In this document: piece by piece, positions 43,507 through 55,228 of the stretch | How the letters are laid out: each line of letters begins with the position of its first letter | Numbering within the stretch: position 1 is the stretch's first letter | Assembly (NCBI RefSeq): GCF_006874625.1 | Contig: NZ_CP030034.1 | Span: 3,286,001-3,350,000, forward strand | DNA: 64,000 nt | DNA from: Bdellovibrio sp. NC01 | Lineage (GTDB): Bacteria; Bdellovibrionota; Bdellovibrionia; Bdellovibrionales; Bdellovibrionaceae | Direction of reading: 5' to 3' | The notes under the pieces: generated by a model | The model's input: only the letters and a program-made list of their open reading frames with translations | What the model was told of the DNA's origin: nothing | Database searches by the model: none | Made by a program: the position numbers and the translations under genes

Positions 43507-44781
43507 TTATCTTGTGCGTTTGTCGTCTGCTGCTATTGAGCGGTCTTTGTGCGCTAGAGTGATAAGGGCGATGTTGTATTTGTCTTTTGGTACTGCAATC
43601 ACTGTGTGAGCTGGGATTGCGTAGCCTCTTCTTGTTACTAGAGACGTCAAATGTGGGTTAAACATTTGGGCCTTATCTGTGTCACCATCGAACCACTTTA
43701 CTAGGTCTTTGTATTTCACTGACACTGGCAATTTTAAATCTTGGGCTTCCAATGGTTTTGACCAAACCACTGAACCGAAGTAAACATTCGCGTTCTTTTC
43801 AACTTCAAGTGCCGCTAAGAAACAGGCATAGAAGTTTCTTGAAGCAAAACCGAAGCTCTTTCTTGAATCGACGTTTTCAATCAAGTGAGCCAAATCTTTC
43901 GTTTTGTACTCATTCGACATTTTCTTCACGCCTGTTGGACCGTGATTGTAACCAGTCACAGCCAATGGCCATGATTCGAGCATTGTATAGTTTTGACGAA
44001 GCAACTTCGCCGCAAGCTTTGTCGCTTCCAACGGATGATTGCGTTTATCAACACTCGCAGAAATCATTTTATAAGGACGAGCTGTGTACGGCATGATCTG
44101 CCAGATACCACTCGCACCTACTTTAGAGCGCGCCATGATATTGAAAGAAGATTCAACAAAAGCCAAACGAGTCAGCTCTGTTGGAACTTTTGCATCACGG
44201 AAGATTTTTTCCATGTCTTCAATATAACGACCTGAATAGAAGATCGCTGCTTGCATACGGTCTTTTTGACCAAGTTGGAAACGCAAACGGCCTTCTTGCT
44301 CTTTATTCAATTTCAATTTCGCTGCGATTTCTTTTTTCACCGCATCGATTTTCTTTTGTTTTTCGCGGTCCGTTTTGAAGTCTTTCAAATCAACAACTTC
44401 ATAAACAATACCGACGTCATCCATATCGTGGATCACACCTTGAGTTGTTGAATACTTTGAATAAACATCAACCCAGAACTGCACTTGTTTTTCCATTCCT
44501 TTAGGAACAGCAAACGCACCTTCTGAATAACCTAAGAAATTCTTTTGATCTTTAAAGTTCGGTTGACGCCAAAGACGACTCTCTGCCGTTAAGACAGGAG
44601 CTACTTGTGGCACAACTGTCGATACAACAGGTGCAGCTTCTAACACAGGAGCTGGGGCTGCCGGCGCAGCGACCACCGCCGGCGCGGCTGCCGTGTTAGT
44701 CGTAGTTGCAACTTCAGCTGAATTAGCAGCAAAAGAAGTAAGCAAAGAAATGCTTAATACTGAGACACTCATTACTTTCAT
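43507..44781 (-). CDS. Exported lytic transglycosylase, MltD-like
   Basis: 424 residues with a signal peptide (ending SFAANSA), an Ala/Pro/Val-rich linker, then an SLT (goose-lysozyme-like) domain: catalytic Glu in LAFVESSFN, then GASGIWQIMPYTARPY, and the closing AVTGYNHGPTGV. Cleaves the MurNAc-GlcNAc bond to anhydro-MurNAc. The part after the SLT domain (about 340-424) contains AHTVIAVPK but is not a clear LysM. ATG 44781 follows TAGGAG. Same direction and 33 nt downstream of dacB. Confidence 0.88.
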   Translation of the reverse strand: MKVMSVSVLSISLLTSFAANSAEVATTTNTAAAPAVVAAPAAPAPVLEAAPVVSTVVPQVAPVLTAESRLWRQPNFKDQKNFLGYSEGAFAVPKGMEKQVQFWVDVYSKYSTTQGVIHDMDDVGIVYEVVDLKDFKTDREKQKKIDAVKKEIAAKLKLNKEQEGRLRFQLGQKDRMQAAIFYSGRYIEDMEKIFRDAKVPTELTRLAFVESSFNIMARSKVGASGIWQIMPYTARPYKMISASVDKRNHPLEATKLAAKLLRQNYTMLESWPLAVTGYNHGPTGVKKMSNEYKTKDLAHLIENVDSRKSFGFASRNFYACFLAALEVEKNANVYFGSVVWSKPLEAQDLKLPVSVKYKDLVKWFDGDTDKAQMFNPHLTSLVTRRGYAIPAHTVIAVPKDKYNIALITLAHKDRSIAADDKRTR

Positions 44782-44813
44782 CGAACGTGCTCCTATCATG
44801 GATCTCATTCGGC

Positions 44814-46235
44814 TTATTTTACTAAGAAGATAAGCAATTTATCAAAAAATTGGCGAACCTTTGTTTCATCTGTAGAACCATTGTAAACAAAACTAAAAGT
44901 TACCACGCGACCATCTGCCAAACCCGCATAGCCAGCCAAAGACACGACGTTATTGATATATCCCGTTTTAGCACGGACCCAACGCTCGGCCTCAGAATCT
45001 TTCATGCGCTTTTTGAGTGTCCCATCAATACCCGCGATTGGTAAAGAGCTGAGGAACTCTGGCTGGACTCTAAAGTCATTGCGCAGATGTTGCAGCACTC
45101 GCCACATCACATATGAGGACATCTTGTTTTCTCGAGTTAAGCCAGACGGACTCTCGATATGATACTGATCTTCGGGAAGGGCTAGACTTTTCAAGTGTTC
45201 ATTGATCAGCACCACACCATCTGCCAAGCTTGCACCTTTTGGTTTTTTGAACGTGCCCAAATTTTTTGTCAGCATTTCTGCCACGTAGTTGTTCGAGAAC
45301 TTGTTCATGTCGGCAAGAATTTGTTCAATCGCTTTACTTTCTGATTCGGCCATCACCTCCGCACTCTCTGGTGTGACACCGGTTTTGATTGAACCGGTTA
45401 CTTGAACACCACGTTGTGCAAGAAATGATTTCAAATTGTATCCAGACCAAAGATCTGGCTGAGTGATATTTTTGAAGATCGCAATTTCTTTGTTACCGCG
45501 ACCGATACTGCCACCGACGTGAATGACATCACCATCAAACTTCGAGTCCTCTTTACGATCGGCAAGAAGTTTGTTTTCGTTTCCACTTGTGGTTTTTGCT
45601 TTGGCGACTAGACGGATATAGTCATTTTCTGGATCTGAAAAGACTTTCGCTTCTTCACCAACCTTGCCCGGGCGAACAAAAATATTTGCCGAGTTCCAAT
45701 TGAATGACATCGCACCCACTGGAGCATCGTAAGCGCGATCAACACGCTCTTTTTGGCGACTAACGTCGTAACGCATTTTATCAAATAACGAATCATCGAC
45801 AACGATATCGCCTTCGATCTTTTTTACTTGGTTTCTTAGGAACGCATTAACCAAGAACCACATGTTTTCAGAAACAAACGACGGGTCACCGCCGCCTTTA
45901 AGATAGATGTTACCTTTCAACACGCCGTTTTTAATATCGCCGCTGCCAAGAAGCTGCGTTTTAAATTTATGACCCGGAGGAAAATTCGCCAAAACTGCTG
46001 AAGCTGTCACCACTTTTGTGATCGAAGCAGGCGTCATTCTGATCTTACCGTTCACGTCGATGATGGTTCTAAGACTTTCCCCTTCACCAGATGTTGCATA
46101 CATTCCCACATCTTTTAACTGGACCCCGTGCTTTTTCGCCAAGCTTTCTAATTCGCTTTCGACCGCTTTCGGTTCGATATTGGCGTGAGCATTGAACATC
46201 CAAAGAATTGCTGTCGTAAGAACTAGAAATCTCAT
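44814..46235 (-). CDS. dacB: D-alanyl-D-alanine carboxypeptidase/endopeptidase (PBP4 family)
   Basis: 473-residue exported class C penicillin-binding protein with a signal peptide (MRFLVLTTAILWMFNAHA). Catalytic motifs: SITK (about residue 70), SNN in KFSNNYVAEM (about 313) and KTG (about 421). DacB/PBP4 trims pentapeptides and cuts 4-3 cross-links; in Bdellovibrio, PBP4 homologues de-crosslink prey peptidoglycan so the prey rounds up. Whether this one is a predatory or a housekeeping copy cannot be told from sequence. Confidence 0.92.
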   Translation of the reverse strand: MRFLVLTTAILWMFNAHANIEPKAVESELESLAKKHGVQLKDVGMYATSGEGESLRTIIDVNGKIRMTPASITKVVTASAVLANFPPGHKFKTQLLGSGDIKNGVLKGNIYLKGGGDPSFVSENMWFLVNAFLRNQVKKIEGDIVVDDSLFDKMRYDVSRQKERVDRAYDAPVGAMSFNWNSANIFVRPGKVGEEAKVFSDPENDYIRLVAKAKTTSGNENKLLADRKEDSKFDGDVIHVGGSIGRGNKEIAIFKNITQPDLWSGYNLKSFLAQRGVQVTGSIKTGVTPESAEVMAESESKAIEQILADMNKFSNNYVAEMLTKNLGTFKKPKGASLADGVVLINEHLKSLALPEDQYHIESPSGLTRENKMSSYVMWRVLQHLRNDFRVQPEFLSSLPIAGIDGTLKKRMKDSEAERWVRAKTGYINNVVSLAGYAGLADGRVVTFSFVYNGSTDETKVRQFFDKLLIFLVK

Positions 46236-46318: not shown

Positions 46319-47275
46319 ATGAAAAAACGCGAATGGCTGATCGTGATTCTTCCTCTTCTGGCAACTTGGTTCGTGGACCGCGTCACCAAAATGTGGGCAG
46401 CAGATCTAAAACAAATTTTATCTTTTGGCCCACTTCATTTTGTATTGCACCACAATCACGGTGCAATGCTAGGCCTGTTTTCAGATTTACCATCCGTGTT
46501 GAGAATTGTGTCGCTTTCAACAGGTGGTGCTTTTCTTCTGTGCACGTATGCATTGATTCAATATTTATTGCCGATTAAATCTCTGACATTACGTTCGGGT
46601 TTGTCGATTCTGATTGGCGGTATCATCGGTAACGTCACGGATCGTATCTTGTGGGGTTATGTTGTCGACTTCATCGTGATTGGAACTCCATCATTGTCGT
46701 CACCCGCTTTCAATATGGCCGATGCGTTACAATGGGTCGGTTATGGTTTAATTGTCTACGCCATCATTCGCGAAGGTGAATTGTTGTGGCCTGAAAACAA
46801 TGTGCGCAAACAATACTGGGTCAACATGTCATTCCAATTGAAATATTGTTTCATGTTGATGGCAGTTGGTTTGAGTTTAACTGTGATCAGCATGGTTTTT
46901 TCGTACACTTATTTGCGTGTGACGATTCAAGAACTGGTTGGTAACAATCAATTCCTGATGAACAAATTCTTAGTCCCGTTCATTATCACCTTCAGCGTAA
47001 TTTGTGTCGCTTTCTGTGCGATTTTATTCGCGGTTGGTAGACTGATTTCTCATCGCATTGCGGGTCCGTTGTATGCGTTTGAAAGATTTCTGGATGAAGC
47101 CTTGGCCGGTGTTGCGAAGCCTTTGAAATTACGCACGGGCGATGAGTTCCGTCATCTTGAAGAGTTGGCTGAACAAATCAATGGGCGCCTGAATGAAATC
47201 AAACGTGAACGCACTGTGAACGTTGTTGAGTTTTCAGAGACGTCTGAAGATAAGAAAAAAGGCTCTGCAGAGTAG
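46319..47275 (+). CDS. lspA: Signal peptidase II fused to TM-HAMP module
   Basis: 318 residues, about twice the usual 160. N-terminal half is LspA: DRVTK (about 20-24), HNHGAMLGLF, GGIIGNVTDR (catalytic Asp 108) and FNMAD (catalytic Asp 135), which cleaves prolipoprotein signal peptides. Residues 170-240 add two further TM segments, then a HAMP domain (SHRIAGPLYAFERFL...RTGDEFRHLEELA, about 245-305). The last part is charged. The fusion is continuous, with no frameshift or internal start evident. Diverges from dacB across 83 bp. Confidence 0.85.
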   Translation: MKKREWLIVILPLLATWFVDRVTKMWAADLKQILSFGPLHFVLHHNHGAMLGLFSDLPSVLRIVSLSTGGAFLLCTYALIQYLLPIKSLTLRSGLSILIGGIIGNVTDRILWGYVVDFIVIGTPSLSSPAFNMADALQWVGYGLIVYAIIREGELLWPENNVRKQYWVNMSFQLKYCFMLMAVGLSLTVISMVFSYTYLRVTIQELVGNNQFLMNKFLVPFIITFSVICVAFCAILFAVGRLISHRIAGPLYAFERFLDEALAGVAKPLKLRTGDEFRHLEELAEQINGRLNEIKRERTVNVVEFSETSEDKKKGSAE

Positions 47276-47431: not shown

Positions 47432-50400
47432 ATGCTTAAGGGGAGTTTTGCTAGCACGTTGTTCACTGTGATCGTTTTGGTCACAGGTTTGGCGCTTGTC
47501 GGTTGTACCGATGTGGTGCCACAGGTTGCTATGCTTCGTGAAATTCCCACGGTTTCAAACAAAGTCATTTTTGATTCTTTCGTTCCCGCGCAAAATCCCA
47601 CAAACAGCGTTGATGACATTTCGATAACAGCGTATGGCTCGGGCTTTTCTGCTTACAAGATGACTTTGGAGTCTTCACTACAAAACTGCGCCAACGCTGA
47701 TTTTTCCAAAGCAACAGAAAACACTTCCGGCAATTTTACATTCCCGGCCCCATCGGAAGGCTCGTGGGTTGTGTGTGCTCTTGCCCGAGTTGCTGCCACA
47801 GGAACCTGGCAAGATGCTTCAGAAGCGTCCACTTCAAAAATTCTGCAAGTCGACAGAACTGCGCCCGAGAATAATTCATTGGTCATTAATCACGACATCG
47901 GTTGGACAACCGGCGTGTCGGTGCAAGTCGATTTAACATCGACGGGAGCATCCGAAGTTTATATCACGCAAACCGATGACACGTGCAGCACGGGTGGCAC
48001 ATGGGAAACTTTCACTCAATCAAAGCAAATCACTTTGCAGCACGAAAATGCGATGAACACGGTTTACGCCAAATTCCGTGATGCCGCTTTGAATGAAACG
48101 GACTGCATGGCGCGGAATATTTTGCACGACAACATTCCGCCCATGATTCCGATGGTGACCTCGCCACCGGCGGGAACTGTTTATAATGCCGCGACGACAA
48201 GTACAGTCATCAATTTTTCATGTGAAAGCGGAAGTACTCTAACACTTCAGGATGGCTCGGCCTCTTGGGATTTTAGTTGCGCAAATTCGGTTGCGGCGTA
48301 CACGCTCGATTTAACGAAATACAGTAACGGTGGCGTCCTGACCATCTTCGCGAAAGATCAAGTTGGAAATGTTTCTTCGAACATTCAGTACAACTTCATT
48401 CGCGATACTGTGCCACCTGATGCCGTGGTTGTCACTTCGCCTGCAAACAACAGTTACATCAATGCTGCAAAATTACCGTCTATGCTTTTTTCGGGAACCT
48501 GCGAATCTGGAGCGACAGTCTACTTCAGTGGGCAGTCCACGACTTGCGTGAACAGTGCGTGGTCCCTTTCTGTTTCTGTCAGCTCGTTTGCTGAGGGCAC
48601 AGTTACTCTGAATGCTTATCAAGTCGATGCTGCTGGGAATACGGGACCAACAACAACGACGACTTTAATTAAAGACACAATTGCCCCTGCAAGCATTGGT
48701 TCTTTGACATTCGCATCAAGTTGGATCAACTCATACAATCAAAGCGCATTTAATCTAAGTGGCACCTGCGAAACTGGTGCGACGATCACTTATAAATTCG
48801 GAAGTTTTGTTGGAACTCTTTCGTGCTCGGGTGGAGCTTTCAATAACTATGTCGATTTAACTTCGCTACCAGAAGGCAATCTTGCTTTTGAAATTTATCA
48901 AACGGATCCTGCGGGTAATCAATCCACTTCAACAAGCACTGGCTTAAATAAAGATACGATCGCACCAACAATCGTTGCCACGGGCCTTCCGGCTGCGAAC
49001 TCTATTTCAAATTTAAATTCCATTAACATCGCCGTTAACGCTGGTGACGCCGTTTATTACTCTTATAAACTAGGCCCTGCCGGTTCTACGGTTTGTAACA
49101 ATGCTTCTGGTTATGGCGCATGGATTGCTGTCGGCACAACAACCCCTGTCTCCTTAGGCTCCGATGGCAAGATCACTCTTTGTGTTGTCGGTAAAGACAA
49201 TGCCGGCAATATTGACTACACTAAATCTGTTAGCTCGACATGGTGGAAAGATACGGTCCTTTCGACTTTACGTTTTGAAAGTGTTGAACAAACCGTCAAT
49301 ACCGGTGCAGGTGTGCAATACGTGAACGTCATATTAACACCGGCGAAAGCCTATCCGGTTTCCTTCTTAATGGATGTCGGTGGTGACACTATCTATAATG
49401 TCGACCATGGCTATTCTTCATCAGCAATTCAAACCATAAATGCGGGTACAACTTCATCCTTGATCGGCGTCAATATTTTGCAGAATAACTCGCGCACGGG
49501 CCTTGGCCTTTTAAGTTTTGTTTTGAATGGCTCCCCATTCCCTAGCGGCGGCCTTCTGCAAATTGATCCAAGTTTCGATAGCTCTTCGATGTTGATCCGT
49601 TATGCAGGCACACAACCTGTCGTCAGTTCCATCGCTGCCGGAGGCCAGCATACGTGTGCCGTTCTTAACACCGGTGCACTGAAATGCTGGGGCGCGAACG
49701 ACTTCAATCAGTCGACAACGACAACAGAGAAAATCACTGCCGTCGCAACCGCTCCGATAGCTGCGAATTTCAGTAAGGTCACGGCTGGACAAAAACATAC
49801 CTGTGGTATCACAACGGGTGGCGTTGCTTATTGCTGGGGTTCTAACGAAAGCGGACAGTTAGGCTCAACTAATCTTTCAAACACCCAGGTCGCAGTCGAT
49901 AGCGGTACGATTTTATACTCTTCTATTTCTGCGGGCCCAAGTGCCACATGCGGTATCACGACAGCGGGAATACTTCGCTGTTGGGGTTTAATTTCTTCAG
50001 TCGTTGCGCCAGCGGTCCTTGATTCTGGTACGAATTATTCATCGGTATCTGTTGGTGCAAATCATATCTGCGGCATCACGACATCAAATATTTTAAAATG
50101 CATGGGCACTAACGACAAAGGCCAGCTTGGTAATGGTTCAACAGTAAATTCATCAACCTTTGTCACAATTGACGGCGGCATTGCTTATTCGGCAGTTGCG
50201 GCAGGCAATGGCTTCACATGCGGTATCGTAGCCAATAGCAAATATCTGAAATGTTGGGGGCAAAATGATTACGGACAAGTCGGAAATAATTCGACGGCAA
50301 ACGTAACCACGCCAACGGTCATTGACGGTAGCAATCCGTATTTAAGCGTTTTTGTCGGACCTAACTTCGCCTGCGGTCTGACTAATTCTAATAATTTGAA

Positions 50401-51715
50401 ATGTTGGGGCTCAAACTCAGACGGACAATTTGGTGACGGCACTGTTGATAAAAAAATAATTCCAACTCAAGTCAATTCAAACACGTATGCGGCGGGCTCT
50501 GCAGGTGGTGCCCATGTCTGTATGGTCACTGCAACTGGCGAATTAAGCTGTGCTGGTAGTAACTCGTCAGCACAAATGGGTAACATCAATTGGACGTACA
50601 AGCGAGCACCAACATCTGTGCTTGGGACGATGACATACACCTCTATCACATCTGGTTTTGGTCACATGTGTGCGTTGAACACTAGCAATAGTGCCATGTC
50701 TTGTTCCGGTTACAATACGTTTGGACAATTTGGTAACAATGATTCGGTATCTGTCGCGGGTCTTCAGTATGTGCAAAAAACTTCCGCTTACTCGAGCATC
50801 GCCAGTGGACAGTTCCACATGTGCGGTATTTTGACTTCTTCGGGACAACTTAGATGTTGGGGAAAAAATGATTCGGGTCAGGTATCTTTAGATCCAACAA
50901 CTTACCCACAAATGCTGTCTCCAACTATAGTCGATTCAGGTGTCAGTTATTCTCAAGTACGCCCTGGTTTCAATCACACTTGCGCGATCACTTCTTCGAA
51001 CATCGTTCGATGCTGGGGCAACAATATCTATGGCGCTGTTGGCAATGGCGGTTCAGGTGCAAACGTCATTACGCCGACTTCGGTTTCTGACGGCAACACG
51101 TACAAATCTGTTTCGGCCGGTTACTTGTTCTCTTGCGGTGTTACGACGTCAGGTATTTTAAAATGCTGGGGTGACAGTGCCGACGGTAAATTGGGTAACA
51201 ATGATAACGGCACATCGGATTCTTACGTTCCACTGCAAATCGATACAGCGGATACATTCATTAAAGTCAGCTCGGGCTTACGCTCTTCGTGCGCAATCAC
51301 TTCAAACAATTATTTGAAGTGTTGGGGCGCAAACGATTCAGGACAACTAGGTACCGGCGACAACACAGGTCGCATTGTTCCTACGTATGTCGATGGCTCA
51401 ACGAAATATAATTACATCGCTATGGGCACAACCCATTCATGCGGCATTACCACAGCCGGCGCATTGAAATGCTGGGGTGGAAATACTTCCGGACAATTAG
51501 GCAACGGCGCCTTGACTGGCAGCTCATCACCGATCGTTGTCGATGGTGCGAATGTTTATATCGATGTCACTGTCGGAAATGATTTTTCGTGCGGCTTACT
51601 ACAAAACGGCAAAATCAACTGTTGGGGTGGCAACCGCTACGGTCAAACTGCGAACGTTCGTGATTCGTCGTTCTGGCATGTGTTCGTGAATGCTCTGCGC
51701 ACTCTTGCACAATAA
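47432..51715 (+). CDS. Giant surface lipoprotein: Ig-like domains and 14 RCC1-type repeats
   Basis: 1427 residues. Signal peptide with lipobox LVGC (Cys 25). Residues about 130-600 hold several bacterial Ig-like domains (recurrent DT(I/V)xP start, AxDxAGN motif). Residues about 730-1420 hold 14 RCC1-like repeats, each with H/F-x-C-x(~9)-C-W-G-x-N-x-x-G-Q, so two Cys per repeat. Fourteen repeats would fit two seven-bladed propellers. RCC1 propellers bind proteins or carbohydrates. The start ATG 47432 has no good Shine-Dalgarno. Function unknown; surface binding or adhesion is an inference. Confidence 0.85.
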   Translation: MLKGSFASTLFTVIVLVTGLALVGCTDVVPQVAMLREIPTVSNKVIFDSFVPAQNPTNSVDDISITAYGSGFSAYKMTLESSLQNCANADFSKATENTSGNFTFPAPSEGSWVVCALARVAATGTWQDASEASTSKILQVDRTAPENNSLVINHDIGWTTGVSVQVDLTSTGASEVYITQTDDTCSTGGTWETFTQSKQITLQHENAMNTVYAKFRDAALNETDCMARNILHDNIPPMIPMVTSPPAGTVYNAATTSTVINFSCESGSTLTLQDGSASWDFSCANSVAAYTLDLTKYSNGGVLTIFAKDQVGNVSSNIQYNFIRDTVPPDAVVVTSPANNSYINAAKLPSMLFSGTCESGATVYFSGQSTTCVNSAWSLSVSVSSFAEGTVTLNAYQVDAAGNTGPTTTTTLIKDTIAPASIGSLTFASSWINSYNQSAFNLSGTCETGATITYKFGSFVGTLSCSGGAFNNYVDLTSLPEGNLAFEIYQTDPAGNQSTSTSTGLNKDTIAPTIVATGLPAANSISNLNSINIAVNAGDAVYYSYKLGPAGSTVCNNASGYGAWIAVGTTTPVSLGSDGKITLCVVGKDNAGNIDYTKSVSSTWWKDTVLSTLRFESVEQTVNTGAGVQYVNVILTPAKAYPVSFLMDVGGDTIYNVDHGYSSSAIQTINAGTTSSLIGVNILQNNSRTGLGLLSFVLNGSPFPSGGLLQIDPSFDSSSMLIRYAGTQPVVSSIAAGGQHTCAVLNTGALKCWGANDFNQSTTTTEKITAVATAPIAANFSKVTAGQKHTCGITTGGVAYCWGSNESGQLGSTNLSNTQVAVDSGTILYSSISAGPSATCGITTAGILRCWGLISSVVAPAVLDSGTNYSSVSVGANHICGITTSNILKCMGTNDKGQLGNGSTVNSSTFVTIDGGIAYSAVAAGNGFTCGIVANSKYLKCWGQNDYGQVGNNSTANVTTPTVIDGSNPYLSVFVGPNFACGLTNSNNLKCWGSNSDGQFGDGTVDKKIIPTQVNSNTYAAGSAGGAHVCMVTATGELSCAGSNSSAQMGNINWTYKRAPTSVLGTMTYTSITSGFGHMCALNTSNSAMSCSGYNTFGQFGNNDSVSVAGLQYVQKTSAYSSIASGQFHMCGILTSSGQLRCWGKNDSGQVSLDPTTYPQMLSPTIVDSGVSYSQVRPGFNHTCAITSSNIVRCWGNNIYGAVGNGGSGANVITPTSVSDGNTYKSVSAGYLFSCGVTTSGILKCWGDSADGKLGNNDNGTSDSYVPLQIDTADTFIKVSSGLRSSCAITSNNYLKCWGANDSGQLGTGDNTGRIVPTYVDGSTKYNYIAMGTTHSCGITTAGALKCWGGNTSGQLGNGALTGSSSPIVVDGANVYIDVTVGNDFSCGLLQNGKINCWGGNRYGQTANVRDSSFWHVFVNALRTLAQ
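49624..51690 (+). repeat. Fourteen RCC1-like coding repeats
   Basis: Coding repeats with a conserved C-W-G core (two variants lack the Trp, one lacks the N). DNA identity among repeats is modest, so they are old rather than freshly amplified. Confidence 0.8.
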
Positions 51716-54293: not shown

Positions 54294-55118
54294 CTAGAAC
54301 ACAGTCGTAGCGTCTTTGATACGTGACAAGTAGTAGCGTTTCGCCGTCTGGTCCTTAAGACAGAAGGCTTGCAAGTAATCCCCGTCAGGATTTCGCACGA
54401 TACCAATAGGTTTCACGCGGCGAGTTTCACCTTTATTGGATCCGCCATCATAGATCATATCTATATCGCGCTTTGTATTTATAGAATCAATCAATGTGCG
54501 CAAAATTGGATCGCGACCTGATAAAGAATAATCTTTCCACCACAATTGTTTGCCTTGGCTTTTGATTGCAGCGGCTAAAGTCGCTTCTTCGCCTAATTTT
54601 TTGAAGCATTCGACAGCTACCAACAGACATGACTTCGCATCATCGTAGGCACGATGTGCTTGACCGCCATCAATGTTCAAATGCTTCACCAAAGTTTGTA
54701 GCTTGTGATTTTCTACGCCGTGAATAAGTTTACGTGAAAGAAGACTTGTGCACAGTGCGGGTTCAGTCGGTAAAGGCAAACCTGCTTTTTCAAATTCAAG
54801 AGTCAGGAAACCCAAATCAAAGGGACAGTGATGGGCCAGCACGATGCAGCCTTTGAAAAACTCATGAATTTCAACGATCTTGCTTGCGATGCTTGGCGCA
54901 TCGGCCACCATTTCGTTGGTGATGCCGTGAATACCGATAATAAAATCGCTCATGGTTTCACGGGGCTTTAATAAGAACTGCAAGCGCCCGATTTCTTCGC
55001 CCTTGTAGTATTTTACCGCGCCGAACTCGACGATATCGAACCCGACTGGGTAAGCTCCGCTTGTTTCGGTATCAAAGGCTATATAAGTGTATTCGCTTAA
55101 AGGCAGATCTAAATTCAT
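54294..55118 (-). CDS. DEDDh 3'-5' exonuclease fused to a WYL-like domain
   Basis: 274 residues. N-terminal DnaQ-like exonuclease (about 10-175) with ExoI DTE (FDTETSG), ExoII motif AHHCPFDLGF and ExoIII HRAYDDAK, all consistent with DEDDh. A linker (about 176-215) leads to a C-terminal WYL-like domain (IDMIYDGG..RRVKPIG..YLQAF..RYYLSRI). WYL domains bind nucleic acid or act in regulation of defence genes. Together the layout suggests a repair or processing nuclease. It lies upstream of lon (127 bp) in the same direction. Confidence 0.78.
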   Translation of the reverse strand: MNLDLPLSEYTYIAFDTETSGAYPVGFDIVEFGAVKYYKGEEIGRLQFLLKPRETMSDFIIGIHGITNEMVADAPSIASKIVEIHEFFKGCIVLAHHCPFDLGFLTLEFEKAGLPLPTEPALCTSLLSRKLIHGVENHKLQTLVKHLNIDGGQAHRAYDDAKSCLLVAVECFKKLGEEATLAAAIKSQGKQLWWKDYSLSGRDPILRTLIDSINTKRDIDMIYDGGSNKGETRRVKPIGIVRNPDGDYLQAFCLKDQTAKRYYLSRIKDATTVF

Positions 55119-55228
55119 AGGCCGCTCAGACTACCCTATCTTCCCGCTTTTGGTCCAGCTCCCTGTCAGATGTAGAGCTGATTTCTTTCTTTTACACACT
55201 CGTTGAGTCAGAATGAAACGAACTATCT

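Follow-up and report, generated by a model that had tools for sequence, protein, structure and literature searches.

In the 64,000-nucleotide stretch of Bdellovibrio sp. NC01 DNA analysed here (the window), a single gene encodes a signal peptidase II (LspA) domain that continues into two additional transmembrane (TM) helices and a HAMP-like domain. We interpret this fused gene as an ancient second signal peptidase II for a minor class of lipoproteins with a [FY]x[HNQT]C lipobox, its TM-HAMP tail most likely dimerising or gating the enzyme, and assign this reading a probability of roughly 0.55. That lipoproteins would in consequence mature along two parallel routes, with the HAMP-bearing LspA serving [FY]x[HNQT]C boxes that the canonical LspA cannot cut, is in our estimate an even bet. 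A separate peptidase for special lipoproteins is probable because the fused gene is linked to genes with unusual lipoboxes in several families.

The reading frame is uninterrupted from ATG to stop, and its position and continuity agree exactly with the original prediction (Table 1). Pfam finds one domain in the 318-aa protein, PF01252 at residues 14-150 (E 1.7e-22; 80.6 bits, far above the cut-off of 25), which confirms the predicted peptidase, and the same profile matches 48/48 fused members scanned. The protein misses the TIGR00077 equivalog cut-off (47.3 vs 73.95 bits) and is a member of the LspA family whose equivalog status is not confirmed by that model. When the whole AlphaFold model (mean pLDDT 87.8, with 48 natural sequences as input) was searched with Foldseek, the LspA fold was retrieved (6ryp, E 3.3e-7, TMt 0.73; 5dir, E 2.2e-6), its four helices spanning residues 3-28, 59-83, 89-112 and 133-156. 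The core LspA motifs are complete, and D20, K24, N46, N105, D108, D117, N132, A134 and D135 are kept in 82/82 fused proteins. Asp 108 and Asp 135 had been proposed as the catalytic residues; alignment with solved LspA structures retains D135 and moves the partner to D117, so that the dyad corresponds to Asp118/Asp136 of S. aureus LspA (PMC6952399). D108 (GNVTDR, the Asp of GNxxDR) is invariant yet distinct from the catalytic pair. As judged from these residues, the active site of the fused LspA is intact, and cleavage of diacylglyceryl-modified prolipoproteins is predicted.

Table 1 Features of the fused gene and its conserved neighbours (window coordinates).
Feature	Position	Strand	Remarks
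Lytic transglycosylase	43507..44808	-	PF01464 E 2.9e-22; homologues in 25 loci
PBP4/DacB-type D-Ala-D-Ala carboxypeptidase	44814..46235	-	PF02113 E 2.1e-85, TIGR00666; divergent conserved neighbour
Fused gene	46319..47275	+	318 aa: LspA domain + TM5/TM6 + HAMP-like domain
LspA (Peptidase_A8) domain	46319..46789	+	Residues 1-157; PF01252 and Foldseek matches
Catalytic Asp D117 (VVDF)	46667..46669	+	Invariant in 82/82 fused proteins; aligns with VVDF Asp of solved LspA (S. aureus D118)
Catalytic Asp D135 (FNMAD)	46721..46723	+	Invariant in 82/82; aligns with NxAD Asp of solved LspA (S. aureus D136)
Helix 170-207 (extra TM5)	46826..46939	+	AlphaFold; hydropathy peak 177-195; FQLKY motif at start; Q173 invariant
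Helix 211-262 (extra TM6 into HAMP helix AS1)	46949..47104	+	AlphaFold; hydropathy peak 221-239
HAMP-like domain, residues 241-298	47039..47212	+	AS1 (G249-P250 invariant) and AS2 (D275 invariant) linked by a connector
DEDD 3'-5' exonuclease fused to WYL domain	54297..55130	-	PF00929, PF13280; homologues in 28 loci

Beyond the LspA body, the model continues with the two long helices listed in Table 1, after which a connector (263-278) leads to the final helix (279-300). Two additional TM spans and a cytoplasmic tail fit the hydropathy and charge of this region, in agreement with the extra TM segments noticed earlier. The HAMP assignment fared less uniformly. In Pfam, PF00672 gave no hit to the fused protein even at E <= 10, nor was it among the families listed at E <= 1 for any relative in the set of 48, and the C-terminal part matched nothing in Pfam and NCBIfam. 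The assignment was upheld by hhalign against HAMP domains of the same genome, in which the TM helix, the AS1 Pro and the AS2 Asp fall in register (score 34.0, Prob 78.5; highest score 22.8 in 100 runs with permuted HAMP columns), and by a tail profile search of this genome, which hit a large kinase-like protein (E 1.8e-6) in its HAMP, at a place where PF00672 itself scores 34.3 bits. Because the whole model finds LspA alone in Foldseek, the tail was also folded separately (pLDDT 92). Its top superposition was on the TM-TM-HAMP of WalK (Z 9.0, 2.3 A over 130 residues), a Z that is modest for long helices, and MCPs were also among the structural matches; the WalK and MCP entries matched are integrative models. 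All 82 fused proteins have P250 and D275, at the positions of the AS1 Pro and the acidic AS2 start after a TM helix, and SHRIAGP and LRxGDEF are distinctive motifs of the tail. Since Pfam gathering is not reached, we file the domain as HAMP-like; the profile-profile and structural evidence supports a divergent HAMP-like domain after TM-TM. No sensor or output domain (no kinase, MCP or cyclase) accompanies it, and TM5 and TM6 are joined by a very short extracytoplasmic loop.

The tail profile additionally finds two small two-TM proteins in the same genome (E 7e-10 and 1.7e-5). These stand-alone 2TM-HAMP-like proteins, at G000:C1:2689715-2690089 (+, 191-aa frame) and G000:C1:649456-649836 (-, 243-aa frame), carry no output domain and are missed by Pfam. 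A Y[IV]NxxFQxKYC stretch ahead of TM1 is common to the fused tail and one small two-TM protein (L137), and this shared stretch suggests that the tail was captured from a small gene.

Among 291 genomes of the phylum surveyed, the full-length fused architecture occurs in >100 independent genomes, both throughout Bdellovibrionales and in several further families, with identity falling to about 25-30%; the C-terminal half, the lack of which in relatives was, together with a missing HAMP match, to count as refutation, is kept across the order and outside it. Nearly every Bdellovibrionales genome encodes two PF01252 proteins, a canonical one scoring 130-150 bits and a fused one scoring about 85-95 bits, and a survey of LspA length, as had been suggested, found forms of about 170 aa and about 310-330 aa together in nearly all genomes of the order. 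In small genomes, for example G177 and G225, the canonical LspA is the only one. The genome of the window contains the separate normal-length copy that the original prediction had proposed to look for (G000:C1:3465834-3466265; 172-aa frame, 134.5 bits). A plasmid search returned no match. In a tree of 104 LspA domains, 48 fused and 56 canonical domains were split with support of 100/99, which is consistent with the origin of the fused clade in a single ancient fusion. Residues conserved in the canonical clade have changed across the fused one: A102 (49/56 canonical) is I in 42/48 fused domains, I138 (55/56), three residues or one helical turn after the catalytic D135, is Q in 43/48, and A50 (50/56) is M or I. 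With the core residues kept and these three positions changed, the comparison suggests that the fused clade has retained catalysis and altered its pocket, a location that is itself deduced from sequence.

In L073:3422-4882 (-), the fused LspA-HAMP frame is extended by an AhpC/TSA domain (peroxiredoxin-like, E 9e-10), and the upstream neighbour of this gene combines an LQNC box with a DUF4331 domain. The 655-aa frames of the L082 type were set aside as domain evidence: they probably read through into a neighbouring CxxCH gene, because both parts are separate in relatives.

To describe the neighbours of the fused gene, we read the flanks of 40 fused lspA loci outside Bdellovibrionales (neighbours within 4 genes). 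Many of the products start with positively charged residues, followed by a hydrophobic segment and an atypical box, [FY]-x-[HNQT]-C, where a canonical one would read [LVI][AST][GAS]C; the published consensus is [LV][ASTVI][GAS]C (PMC8689077). Near the fused gene there were 42 atypical boxes, distributed over 25/40 loci, and 6 canonical ones, the atypical variants including YNHC, YNQC, FNQC, FTHC and FQNC. When only immediate same-strand neighbours with a lipobox-like start were considered, 19/20 belonged to the atypical class and the remaining one had LQNC. The same detector applied to 2.0 Mb from three genomes gave 1 atypical versus 61 canonical boxes (1 vs 46 in 1.2 Mb of the window's own genome, 0 vs 4 in 400 kb of G008 and 0 vs 11 in 400 kb of G082), an enrichment at the loci with a Fisher p of about 1e-22 that ignores phylogeny. 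The flanks of canonical lspA genes (183 kb) yielded one doubtful atypical case. Since Asn at -1 is tolerated in the lipoboxes of Leptospira, an odd residue at this position is by itself not unique. The neighbours bearing atypical boxes have no type in common (NHL-repeat, DUF4331, unknown and, below the cut-off, weakly cytochrome c-like), and the linkage is seen in at least three families. Many loci of family f17 share one operon and are thus not independent; in f20 and f16, however, the arrangement differs and the partners are different ones, with FQNC, while at the f12 locus the partner's box is LQNC.

Across genomes, the presence of two mutually unrelated partners goes with that of the fused gene. 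The cytochrome-like f17 partner (L076:4881-6200) was found at E <1e-70 in 29 genomes, 28 of them with the fused gene, which within f17 amounts to 28/44 fused-positive versus 1/52 fused-negative genomes (p 7e-12, ignoring phylogeny; positives delimited at an E-value of about 1e-15, with two borderline genomes counted as positive). Partner and fused gene are gained or lost together within genera: in g61, G082 has both and G008, G055, G063 and G181 have neither, and g110 is alike. For the f20 partner, of NHL type, the count is 3/291 genomes, each with the fused gene. Operon co-transfer partly accounts for this co-occurrence. At L070:5126-6550 (+), a neighbour of the fused gene starts with ...GVLFTAFQNFTDV, an atypical box with Phe in place of Cys. 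The two atypical-lipobox genes of f17 loci such as L075, L076, L080 and L081 flank a conserved gene whose product begins with a twin-arginine-like stretch (RRDFL); the one such protein tested had no Pfam match. Given the CxxCH proteins nearby, the f17 operon may represent a surface redox system.

Within Bdellovibrionales, the fused gene sits in a different, conserved block with genes for PBP4/DacB (adjoining it in 30 loci), a lytic transglycosylase and the DEDD-WYL exonuclease. Atypical-lipobox lipoproteins are absent beside the fused gene there, the window included, and only one related locus (L042) has an FQNC box nearby. In the window, a gene for a 1427-aa protein with Ig-like and RCC1 repeats and a canonical LVGC lipobox (47432-51715, +) is an insertion that separates the fused lspA from its otherwise conserved exonuclease neighbour. 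We dismissed this RCC1-repeat lipoprotein as a dedicated substrate, because its box is canonical and a homologue was found in one of 52 related loci. In the 1.2 Mb sampled from this genome, one lipoprotein-like protein has an FQNC box (G000:C1:521036-521575, MFRNWALIIIGCLILGFQNCGRNGFAPDSSSSS; it bears ...CLILGFQNCGRNGFA). Over the whole genome the [FY]QNC pattern has 19 sites; strongly hydrophobic residues come before 9 of them, against an expectation of about 3.3 (p 0.003). Taken together, the one protein and the 19 sites indicate that the atypical class is present in Bdellovibrio, though dispersed and uncommon.

The peptidoglycan enzymes PBP4 and SLT, conserved as neighbours in Bdellovibrionales, the intact catalytic residues and the TM-TM-HAMP architecture would also suit a general second LspA of ordinary lipobox specificity, in which HAMP tunes lipoprotein processing to an envelope or membrane signal. 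We regard this as unlikely, since it leaves unexplained both the [FY]x[HNQT]C linkage in at least three families and the clade-wide changes at residues conserved in canonical LspA, and since the short TM5-TM6 loop offers no sensor domain for such a signal. Less likely still is a globomycin- or myxovirescin-tolerant paralogue that backs up an inhibited canonical enzyme, comparable to the lspA paralogues of M. xanthus, an inhibitor producer. Inhibitor producers with multiple lspA copies are known (PMC8689077), and the conserved residues do differ from the canonical clade; the gene is, however, vertically inherited and near-universal in Bdellovibrionales, its conserved neighbours include no antibiotic cluster, and tolerance does not predict the lipobox linkage. 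An equally poor prospect, in our judgement, is that the protein derives from a peptidase but binds atypical lipoproteins without cleaving them, for inner-membrane retention or sorting, with HAMP oligomerising it. Such a role would fit the linkage to atypical lipoproteins and the divergence apparent from the lower PF01252 scores, but retention of all catalytic-core residues in 82/82 sequences suggests selection for catalysis. An artefactual frameshift or assembly join of lspA and a neighbouring gene, which the original prediction had listed as a refuting outcome, is rejected: nothing was found in its favour, and the full-length architecture recurs phylum-wide in independent genomes and forms one clade.

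In the favoured reading, that of a dedicated second signal peptidase II, one ancient event would have fused an lspA paralogue to a small two-TM HAMP-like protein. Lgt would lipidate prolipoproteins with a [FY]x[HNQT]C box at its Cys, and the fused LspA would then cut ahead of the lipidated Cys by means of the D117/D135 dyad, a specificity that would extend to the window's protein; the canonical LspA would handle the ordinary majority with [LVI][AST][GAS]C boxes. The TM5-TM6-HAMP-like cytoplasmic tail would either dimerise the enzyme or convey conformational input to the peptidase, the most likely roles because no output domain is attached. The earlier interpretation holds for a conserved fusion of LspA with a TM-TM-HAMP-type module next to a separate canonical LspA. 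Nothing supports the role it proposed in the attack-to-growth switch, and the gene context outside Bdellovibrionales suggests a peptidase with dedicated substrates instead; HAMP may in addition regulate processing.

Signal peptidase II is commonly regarded as a single general enzyme acting on a single lipobox. To our knowledge, no other LspA carries a signalling-type module, and the fused LspA would be the first. If the dedicated-peptidase reading is correct, lipobox predictors miss a class of lipoproteins in predatory bacteria, and the two enzymes form a natural LspA pair for work on cleavage specificity and inhibitor selectivity; if there are indeed two routes, surface lipoproteins could be regulated or sorted differently. 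In the open-access literature searched, neither the fused protein nor the atypical box turned up, and a paper on the Bdellovibrio MIDAS adhesin discusses lipobox proteins and does not mention a signal peptidase. M. xanthus, likewise a predator, offers a parallel in having multiple lspA genes, lspA1-4 (PMC8689077). They differ in that lspA1 and lspA2 belong to an operon that also contains lgt, in a species that produces the LspA inhibitor myxovirescin, and a HAMP fusion is not mentioned in the review of these paralogues (PMC8689077). Like HAMP (PF00672), the tail domain follows a TM helix, has the invariant AS1 Pro, the connector and a D(E) at the AS2 start, and superposes on WalK TM-TM-HAMP, whereas it is without a Pfam match, has its own SHRIAGP and LRxGDEF motifs and leads to no output domain. 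The stand-alone 2TM-HAMP-like proteins encoded elsewhere in this genome are similar to the tail, yet are unfused to LspA and have no family name. With signal peptidase II itself (PF01252; TIGR00077), the fused protein shares the four-TM aspartyl peptidase fold, the core motifs and the catalytic dyad; it differs in forming a separate clade, in A102I, I138Q and A50M, in its TM-TM-HAMP extension and in its atypical-lipobox neighbours in related families.
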